DNA from: Desulfuromonadales bacterium | GTDB lineage: Bacteria > Desulfobacterota > Desulfuromonadia > Desulfuromonadales > BM103 | Reading direction: 5' to 3' | NCBI GenBank assembly: GCA_030145195.1 | Contig: JAQYVY010000001.1 | Span: 1-64,000, forward strand | DNA length: 64,000 bases | Shown here: piece after piece, positions 10,828-56,925 of the stretch | Layout: the number at the start of each line of letters is the position of its first letter | How positions within the stretch are numbered: position 1 is the first letter of the stretch | Program-made: the position numbers and the translations under genes | Notes under the pieces: generated by a model | Told to the model about the DNA's origin: nothing | Seen by the model: only the letters and a program-made list of their open reading frames with translations | Database searches by the model: none

Positions 10828-10868
10828 CCTCTTAGCTTGTAAAGTGACAGAGGCAAGATAACTCTAGA

Positions 10869-10901
10869 AGGACGGCTCTCAATCGAGTCGTCCTTTTTTT
10901 A
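10869..10901 (+). terminator. Rho-independent terminator of efpL
   Basis: The stem GGACGGCTC / GAGTCGTCC (one G-T pair) with a short loop is followed by seven T. It lies about 45 bases after the efpL stop. Confidence 0.85.
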
Positions 10902-10945
10902 TGGGGCGTTTTTTCCGTGGCGCAAACCTCGCTACGATCCTTAGT

Positions 10946-10965
10946 TTTTTGCAGTTATGCAAAAA
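10946..10965. promoter_or_regulatory. Palindromic operator, copy 1
   Basis: TTTTTGCA-GTTA-TGCAAAAA, a perfect 8-base inverted repeat with a 4-base spacer. It is the first of three such sites upstream of the OFA transporter, about 265-285 bases ahead of the sigma-54 promoter. Candidate upstream activating site of an enhancer-binding protein. Confidence 0.65.
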
Positions 10966-10980
10966 GCCCTAAAATTGCCC

Positions 10981-10996
10981 TTGCAGTTTTGCAAAA
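10981..10996. promoter_or_regulatory. Palindromic operator, copy 2
   Basis: TTGCA-GTTT-TGCAA(AA): same core and the same 4-base spacer as the neighbouring copies but shorter perfect arms. Its centre is 33 bases from that of copy 1, about three helical turns. Confidence 0.6.
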
Positions 10997-11114
10997 CCAT
11001 GTTTTAGGTCTGTCTCGATCAATTCGTAAACCCTTACGTTCTGCTACTTTTCTCCTCATGCGCCAAGCCGTCCCGGCACCCGTGTTTTATTAAAGACCTC
11101 CTCATTTTTTGTTC

Positions 11115-11133
11115 TTTTTGCATTTCTGCAAAA
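11115..11133. promoter_or_regulatory. Palindromic operator, copy 3
   Basis: TTTTTGCA-TTTC-TGCAAAA: the same core at roughly -110 relative to the sigma-54 promoter, a normal distance for an upstream activating site. Confidence 0.65.
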
Positions 11134-11228
11134 CAATGCTTTGACAATTCTCCTGGTCGTTTTGCTGCTCATCCTCTCAAGTAGCCGAATTTAAAGAATA
11201 AAAAGTTTTTTTCAGTCGATTTTCCAGG

Positions 11229-11245
11229 TTGGTACATGTGTTGCC
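11229..11245 (+). promoter_or_regulatory. Sigma-54 (-24/-12) promoter for the OFA transporter
   Basis: TTGGTACATGTGTTGCC has GG at 11231-11232 and GC at 11243-11244 with the required 10-base separation, and matches the consensus TGGCAC-N5-TTGC at most positions (TGGtAC, TTGC). About 220 bases of leader precede the start codon. Confidence 0.65.
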
Positions 11246-11464
11246 ATAGATGTAATGCACAACTCATGACGTCGGCGGTTATTTGTACCGCGTCAACATC
11301 CATTATGGAAAGGCAACCTGATGCAATCGTCGCGCTCGACTACAGATCGTCTGGAAAAACCAGTCATCGGTGCGATCAAGGTTCGCTGGCCCCTCTCATA
11401 TCGAGTTCAACAGATACAGCAATATGGTTTGGATAACTCTATACCGATTATCAAGGAGGCAAAA

Positions 11465-12778
11465 ATGAGCAAGCAAAAATCATTATCAAGACGTGGCTGG
11501 ACGGTCGTACTCGCCGGTACTTGCATCAACCTGGCACTGGGCATCCTTTACACCTGGAGTATCTTCAAGGGTGCGATTGCCGATTCTATCGCCTCGGGTG
11601 CCCCTGGCGCTTTTGCCTGGGACAAGGCCTCGATCAACGATCCTTATGCAACCGCTTGCTTGACTTTCTCTGTGGCGATGATTCTTGCGGGTAAGCTGCA
11701 AGACAAGTTTGGCCCTCGCATCACCTGTATCCTTGGTGGCTTGATGGTTGGTGCCGGTTTCATCATGATCTCCCAGACCACTAACTACTGGTACTGGATC
11801 GTCGGCTTCGGTGTCTTGGCCGGGATGGGGATTGGTTTTGGTTACTCTGCTGCCACGCCTCCGGCACTTAAGTGGTTCCCACCAGCCAAGACCGGCTTGA
11901 TCGCTGGCATTGTTGTCGCCGGTTTTGGTCTGGCTTCAATTTACATTGCACCGTTGGCTCAGTACCTGCTTGGTGCCTACGGTATCCAGCAGTCGATGCT
12001 TTTTTTCGGTGTTGGGTTTGTTGTGGTTACGAGTTTCTTTGGGATGTTTCTTTCTAATCCTCCGGAAGGCTACATTGCCGATCCGAATGCTGCCAAGTCA
12101 AAAGTCAAAGCGGTTGTGGTCGAAGACAAGTCTCCTTCGCAAATTCTTAAATCCGCTAAGTTCTATACCCTGTGGACCTGCTTTTTTATTGGTGCCGGTG
12201 CCGGACTTATGGTTATCGGCAGCGCCAAAGGTTTGGCCAAGGCAAGCATGGGCGAAATGGCTTTTCTGGTCGTTGCCATCATGTCGGTTGGTAATGCCGC
12301 CGGTCGCATCGTGGCCGGGGTCGTTTCCGACAAAATTGGCCGGGCCAACACTCTGGTGATCATGCTGGTTTTCCAGGCGGTGCTGATGTTCTTGGCCATT
12401 CCGGTCATTGACGGGACTTACAGTAACCCGCTCGCAATGCCGCTGCTGGTGACCTTTATGGTCTTTAACTATGGCACCAACCTGTCGCTCTTTCCGTCTT
12501 ATGCTAAGGATCTCTGGGGTGCCAAGCATTTCGGCATGAACTACGGCCTTCTCTTCTCTGCCTGGGGGGTTGGAGCTTTCGTTCTGGTGCGTGCCTCTGA
12601 GATGATGCGGGTCAAGACCGGTGGTTTCACCATGTCTTTCGCCGTTGCCGGTGCTCTGCTGGTGGTTGGTGCTATGCTCGCCGGGACCTTGAAGAAGCGC
12701 AAGGCCGAAGCTCCGGTTCTCGAAGGGGCCCTGGAAGCAGAGGAAGGCCTGGCTCTTTCGGAAGTGACCAACGATTAA
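11465..12778 (+). CDS. OFA-family MFS transporter (oxalate/formate antiporter-like)
   Basis: Start at 11465 (MSKQKSLSRRGWTVV) because AAGGAGG lies at ideal spacing; the longer frame upstream has no such site. 437 residues, 12 predicted transmembrane helices. OFA features: LGILYTWSIFKGAI in helix 1, LQDKFGPRITCILGG in the loop after helix 2, GIGFGYSAATPPALKWFPP, and VSDKIGRANTLV in the second half. The family carries small carboxylates such as oxalate, formate or monocarboxylates; the substrate here is unknown. The sigma-54 promoter and three palindromes upstream suggest induction by an enhancer-binding regulator, as is common for carboxylate carriers. Confidence 0.9.
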   Translation: MSKQKSLSRRGWTVVLAGTCINLALGILYTWSIFKGAIADSIASGAPGAFAWDKASINDPYATACLTFSVAMILAGKLQDKFGPRITCILGGLMVGAGFIMISQTTNYWYWIVGFGVLAGMGIGFGYSAATPPALKWFPPAKTGLIAGIVVAGFGLASIYIAPLAQYLLGAYGIQQSMLFFGVGFVVVTSFFGMFLSNPPEGYIADPNAAKSKVKAVVVEDKSPSQILKSAKFYTLWTCFFIGAGAGLMVIGSAKGLAKASMGEMAFLVVAIMSVGNAAGRIVAGVVSDKIGRANTLVIMLVFQAVLMFLAIPVIDGTYSNPLAMPLLVTFMVFNYGTNLSLFPSYAKDLWGAKHFGMNYGLLFSAWGVGAFVLVRASEMMRVKTGGFTMSFAVAGALLVVGAMLAGTLKKRKAEAPVLEGALEAEEGLALSEVTND

Positions 12779-56605: not shown

Positions 56606-56925
56606 CTCGGAGGGTTTCAAGGCCGAGTCGCTCGCTCTCATCGAATAACCGATGGCAAAAAAAGAAAAGTTTGGTATCAATGCCGGGGTGATAGAGCTAA
56701 TGTTCTGTCTCCCCGGTTGTGTTAAGGCCGGGAATTTGCATGTCTGTAAAGGGTTGAAGCTATGCACCTTCCCTTGTGGTGGTAAATAGCGGAGCTAGGG
56801 TCCTTCATTGGCCGGTACCCGTAATTTTGTGCTGGGAGTTCGCGGTGTTAATGCCGTCAAAGCACCATTTATTGTTTTTTTGTTGTCCGTTATGCGAATC
56901 ATTTGCCTGAGGGGCTTGGTGAAAG
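56606..56925. other. Intergenic region between ccsA and the first multiheme gene
   Basis: 320 bases without a gene. It includes a candidate -24/-12 element at 56725-56740. I searched by eye for a c-di-GMP/cGAMP (GEMM) riboswitch, common before Geobacter cytochromes, and did not see its core. Confidence 0.4.
56725..56740 (+). promoter_or_regulatory. Possible sigma-54 promoter before the first multiheme cytochrome
   Basis: AGGCCGGGAATTTGCA has GG at 56726-56727 and GC at 56738-56739, 10 bases apart; the -12 element TTGCA is perfect, the -24 element (AGGCCG) is less so. Confidence 0.4.

Follow-up and report, generated by a model that had tools for sequence, protein, structure and literature searches.

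A putative sigma-54 enhancer circuit for small-carboxylate uptake in Desulfuromonadia

The intergenic stretch 10946-11245 is, judged from its sequence, the control region of a predicted small-carboxylate (lactate/pyruvate type) importer. We conclude that its three palindromes very probably serve as upstream activator sites of P0001, an NtrC/AtoC-type response regulator, and that the partner kinase P0002 would thereby drive sigma-54 induction of both lactate-type and acetate-type importers. The sigma-54 regulon for small-carboxylate uptake appears to us to be real, and its mechanism is of a known kind. The window in which the control region lies is the whole stretch of DNA analysed, 64,000 nt (JAQYVY010000001.1, positions 1-64,000, forward strand); its features are collected in Table 1, together with the regulator gene, which is on another contig of the same 3.4 Mb genome (G000).

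Acetate and lactate are main electron donors for Desulfuromonadia (Geobacter and relatives) in sediments and in bioelectrochemical systems. In the searchable papers we found no description of a sensor-regulator for acetate or lactate import in this class, and the present analysis names a candidate regulator, sensor, binding site, promoter class and targets. If one ancestral two-component system gates both lactate-type and acetate-type import, the organic-acid supply of metal-reducing and electroactive bacteria would pass through a single sigma-54 enhancer circuit.

Table 1. Coordinates of the predicted control elements and of the genes they are proposed to connect (window positions unless a contig is given).
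Feature	Position	Strand	Description
Intrinsic terminator of upstream efp	10868..10899 (about)	+	inverted repeat AAGGACGGCTC...GAGTCGTCCTT then T7
Putative distal activator site 1	10946..10965	.	TTTTTGCA-GTTA-TGCAAAAA, perfect 8+8 palindrome
Putative distal activator site 2	10981..10994	.	TTGCA-GTTT-TGCAA, 32 bp after site 1
Putative proximal activator site 3	11115..11134	.	TTTTTGCA-TTTC-TGCAAAAC
IHF-like element and A/T tract	11178..11213	+	CAAGTAGCCGAAT, weak, 6/9 positions; probable DNA bend
Sigma-54 (-24/-12) promoter	11229..11245	+	TTGGTACATGTGTTGCC, GG-N10-GC core, predicted from sequence
L-lactate / oxalate-formate-antiporter-family (OFA) MFS transporter gene	11321..12778	+	NCBIfam SfMCT match
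P0001, NtrC/AtoC-type response regulator gene	G000:C4:17366-18733		receiver, AAA+ with GAFTGA, Fis-type HTH

The original prediction had described three palindromes ahead of a -24/-12 promoter, and when we re-read the sequence its coordinates and distances proved correct. Exact matches to TTGCA-N4-TGCAA begin at 10949, 10981 and 11118 and are the only ones in the window, where one further palindrome, with a single mismatch, lies at 56736. Measured to the first base of the -24 element, their centres, from the proximal site outwards, are ∼104, 241 and 273 bp upstream. The predicted promoter has its core in the TGG...TTGC context, and the genome encodes RpoN (PF04552 match, E 2e-64, at C99). The leader has the features anticipated for EBP sites, namely repeated dyads ∼80-300 bp upstream, a co-conserved promoter and what would be a fixed helix face.

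We then compared 21 transporter loci, the majority of them in Desulfuromonadales and Geomonas. Conservation of the motif before orthologues, on which the prediction had staked itself, was found: palindromes together with a TTGGTA-N6-TTGC promoter are present at 17 of the 21, and the other four have degenerate or partial sites. In Geomonas the sites are degenerate (e.g. TTTTGCATTTGTGCGAAA) and the promoter is closer to the gene. The 32-bp spacing of sites 1 and 2 is kept in most orthologues, those of the close relatives included, and in these relatives the proximal site begins ∼110-112 bp before the -24 element. When the window was aligned with nine close orthologous leaders, mean identity to the window was 0.86, 0.87 and 0.84 in palindromes 1, 2 and 3, and 0.75 in the promoter; for the sequences separating these elements it was 0.50, 0.47 and 0.35. 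A further inverted repeat, AAAAC-CAT-GTTTTA, directly follows palindrome 2 (10990-11004) and is kept in nearly all aligned leaders.

Given the A/T-rich edges of the motif and its potential to fold into a short hairpin, we considered whether the palindromes had arisen by chance or formed a terminator-like RNA hairpin of efp; lone exact copies at C41, C79 and C88, unclustered and lacking an obvious target, would fit a chance origin. When the leader (10828-11320) was shuffled 5,000 times with its dinucleotides preserved, 4,992 of the resulting sequences contained no exact palindrome, eight contained one and none contained more. The class-wide search described below gave no control match in 244 genomes. 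As efp has its own terminator upstream, the palindromes are not its 3′ end; the terminator is the boundary between efp and the control region, and no part of the switch. The footprint, with conservation gathered in the palindromes, contradicts both readings, which we have rejected as vanishingly improbable.

The gene controlled is presumably an importer of a lactate- or pyruvate-type monocarboxylate, which is the likelier substrate given its family relationships. Its product scores 392.8 bits against the NCBIfam SfMCT equivalog (cut-off 320), and among solved structures the L-lactate transporter 6G9X, SfMCT of Syntrophobacter fumaroxidans, is closest to it. This likeness covers the transporter alone. 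‘OFA transporter’, as the gene product had been called, is correct as the superfamily name. The core start of the transporter is the ATG at 11465, which has a strong AAGGAGG ribosome-binding site. It is preceded by a conserved N-terminal extension (11321-11464; KPVIGAIKxRWPLSYRVQQLRQYGLDNSI), in which differences gather at third codon positions, a codon-periodic conservation indicating that the extension is translated; two start sites are therefore possible.

To the three sites of this leader the genome adds few others. The exact motif occurs at 11 places in G000, compared with three for a reversed control, and eight of the 11 fall in three clusters. The second cluster (C4:17191-17358) immediately follows the 3′ end of the P0001 gene and precedes an acetate-uptake-transporter gene, P0003 (75 bits against AceTr_1, cut-off 50), with a TTGGTATAAGGTTTGCT promoter between the sites and P0003. 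The third (C93:19866-19911) precedes an alpha/beta-hydrolase gene with ATGGTATACAAATTGCC. In promoter (TTGGTA class) and spacing, both resemble the transporter leader, and a composite search with a relaxed promoter returned exactly these three places in G000, with no control matches.

The position of the second cluster points to P0001 as the likely regulator of the palindromes, an assignment by proximity and co-occurrence across genomes. P0001 has the domains of an NtrC-type regulator (PF00072, PF00158, PF25601 and PF02954, with GAFTGA in its sequence), and its gene follows that of the kinase P0002, which has a tandem Cache_2 sensor (dCache_2, 195 bits). The family has 21 other genomes, of which 17 encode an orthologue of P0001 with 80-84% identity; in an 18th a truncated copy lies at the end of a contig. 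Thirteen of the 17 have the same palindromes immediately 3′ of the gene for the regulator orthologue, with the promoter too where the contig reaches. In seven relatives (G002, G003, G010, G012, G014, G016 and G020) one locus holds the transporter, AceTr with a small membrane-protein gene, and the kinase–regulator pair, and each transporter has its own sites and promoter. Conversely, G013 (99% complete), G008 and G017 have neither regulator orthologue nor transporter nor composite. The original proposal, in which an NtrC-family regulator would use the palindromes as activator sites before the sigma-54 promoter of an OFA transporter, is thus supported by the 17 orthologous loci, by the presence of RpoN and by a candidate regulator beside another site cluster.

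We also weighed the possibility that the palindromes are activator sites for another EBP, or for a further transcription factor whose co-occurrence with P0001 is incidental. G000 encodes ∼18 full-length EBPs, and the regulator orthologue is found in many genomes that lack the strict composite, family f22 above all (see below). Nevertheless, the exact motif is absent from the stretch read at each of the 21 other Sigma54_activat loci of G000, and the palindromes are absent from those paralogous EBP loci of the relatives that could be read. Sites, regulator and targets co-localize in relatives and are lost jointly in G013. We therefore regard another regulator as improbable, and favour P0001.

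A class-wide search was made in 244 Desulfuromonadia genomes for the composite YGCRNNNNTGCRAA-N{86,112}-TTGGTA-N6-TTGC, and the regulator was scored as present from matches with E up to 1e-140. The composite was found at 120 places in 86 genomes, and its reversed control at none. It is present in 84 of the 179 genomes with the regulator and in two of the 65 without it; the Fisher value of 3e-12 overstates this association, since related genomes are not independent. The association nevertheless holds within families: the composite is present in 3/3 genomes with the regulator and 0/9 without it in f11, and in 26/30 and 0/11, respectively, in f23. All 29 downstream genes examined match AceTr, the OFA transporter or the alpha/beta hydrolase.

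Two sets of genomes count against P0001 as the best explanation. In f22 the regulator is present in 47 genomes and the strict composite in none. Palindromes with a variant promoter, TTGGC-N6-AATGC, occur in seven of the 30 regulator-positive f22 genomes tested and in none of 10 regulator-negative ones, among them two AceTr leaders with the palindromes ∼100 bp from the variant promoter; the rest are left unexplained by the regulator assignment. Outside f22, another 48 regulator-positive genomes lack the strict composite; where these were inspected, some proved to carry differently spaced sites or a promoter of slightly altered sequence.

The gaps in the 120 composites fall into groups of 86-88 (18 copies), 92-99 (97) and 105-108 (5), and the lengths 89-91, 100-104 and 109-112 are not represented; the first group is cut, because the search range began at 86. 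These groups are steps of one helical turn, and this helically phased spacing in natural promoter copies constitutes a clean natural data set on sigma-54 enhancer geometry. Between the proximal site and the promoter, A/T maxima occur near -50, -40, -29 and -19 from TTGG, and matches to an IHF-like element (YAANNNNTTGATW) are most frequent at -51. For Geobacter IHF, use has been made of the E. coli consensus WATCAR-N4-TTR (PMC7962754). A match of at least 7/9 is present at -51 in 26 of 54 non-redundant promoters, compared with 1-10 in equal control windows, although the copy in our window reaches only 6/9. We infer from this positional peak that IHF may assist at the promoter.

The same geometry bears on whether the palindromes instead serve as operators at which a repressor, or a regulator of dual function, would modulate the sigma-54 promoter remotely, with the activator sites elsewhere. 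Repressor operators, too, usually take the form of a perfect palindrome, and the activator role of each of the three sites is putative. However, the sites are clear of the promoter, ∼100-270 bp ahead of it, the helical-turn spacing and the intervening IHF-like bend are what activator sites would show, and the leader alignment contains no other conserved palindrome of similar quality. Remote repression is accordingly very unlikely, and we retain the interpretation of the palindromes as activator sites of P0001.

What P0002 senses may be read from its second Cache module, which aligns to 4EXO (pyruvate-bound), 2QHK, 4K08 and 5G4Y and retains the GYxY, YxW, lysine and histidine of the pyruvate binders. 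A histidine in the Cache pocket has been tied to binding of pyruvate rather than L-lactate (PMC12415202). As the aromatic pairs, lysine and histidine of the pocket are all kept, our best guess for the ligand is pyruvate or a similar C2/C3 carboxylate. We envisage that the periplasmic double Cache_2 domain of P0002 would sense external C2/C3 carboxylate and that P0002 would then phosphorylate P0001. P0001 would occupy all three sites, distal and proximal, on one face of the helix, and the IHF-like bend, with the phased A/T tracts, would loop it onto the sigma-54 polymerase at 11229, where its AAA+ domain (GAFTGA loop) would open the promoter. The expected outcome is that lactate-type and acetate-type importers would be induced together. 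Whether one ancestral two-component system, that present in 179 of the 244 Desulfuromonadia genomes, is a dedicated external C2/C3-carboxylate sensor gating both types of import is a proposition that we hold to be evenly balanced.

The closest curated family to this system is E. coli AtoS–AtoC, which serves acetoacetate and short-chain fatty acids and likewise combines an NtrC-type regulator, upstream sites and a sigma-54 promoter with small-carboxylate use; P0001 scores 436.8 bits against AtoC and the P0002 core 230 bits against AtoS. The equivalog cut-offs, 714 for AtoC and 646 for AtoS, are much higher. AtoC has as its site two inverted 20-mers, GCTATGCAGAAATTTGCACA (PMC3118216), which differ from TTGCA-N4-TGCAA; the targets differ too, and the sensor of P0002 is dCache_2. 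From the scores and the different site, we rejected the identification of P0001 as AtoC. According to a study of Desulfovibrio vulgaris, the sigma-54-dependent response regulator DVU3023 targets lactate permeases and lactate oxidation genes (PMC3333781). As described there, DVU3023 is a functional parallel for lactate, likened here by its targets and not by a site motif; it belongs to another bacterial class and controls permeases with an oxidation operon, whereas the targets here are OFA/SfMCT and acetate transporters. The same study gives the FlbD / DVU1063 site, an NtrC-family palindrome with flagellar targets, as GGCA-N4-TGCC (PMC3333781), in which the half-site spacing is the same as here and the half-site is GGCA rather than TTGCA.

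The motif is absent from the main texts of the papers on the Desulfovibrio sigma-54 regulome, response regulators, the Geobacter RpoN regulon and the G. metallireducens genome. In the literature searched, with subscription journals mostly outside its scope, no paper with the motif, the pairing or the regulon was found, and as far as that search reached the small-carboxylate regulon is undescribed.

A second class of matches to a looser pattern (e.g. G000:C6:24266) was set apart, being at another EBP locus and having a TGCAA-N3-TTGCA arrangement. At this locus (G000:C6:22671-25805; L136:2671-5805) a second NtrC-type regulator adjoins pilin-like genes (prepilin N-terminus), and a TTGGTATGGCTTTTGCT promoter accompanies the TGCAA-N3-TTGCA site, in which the half-sites are reversed; the arrangement is kept in several relatives. 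It is probably a separate pilus regulon.

Several reading frames near the other clusters were also noted. Divergent from the alpha/beta hydrolase is a 142-aa ORF with no family match (L013:5907-6335); as its first ATG overlaps a palindrome, its true start is probably downstream. The small membrane-protein ORF after the acetate transporter (L012:3706-4110, 134 aa) occurs in G000 and the relatives examined, and gave no Pfam or NCBIfam match. The acetate transporter of G000 is itself fused to a Cys-rich N-terminal domain (L012:4202-4981; N-termini also in L152-L159), of pattern CPYF..DEDxCDVGCGYISSHDxxMII.FC...Y..C.KYREL and with no Pfam match. In other families the same domain is fused to the OFA transporter, and it is possibly a metal- or redox-binding module common to two unrelated importers of one regulon.
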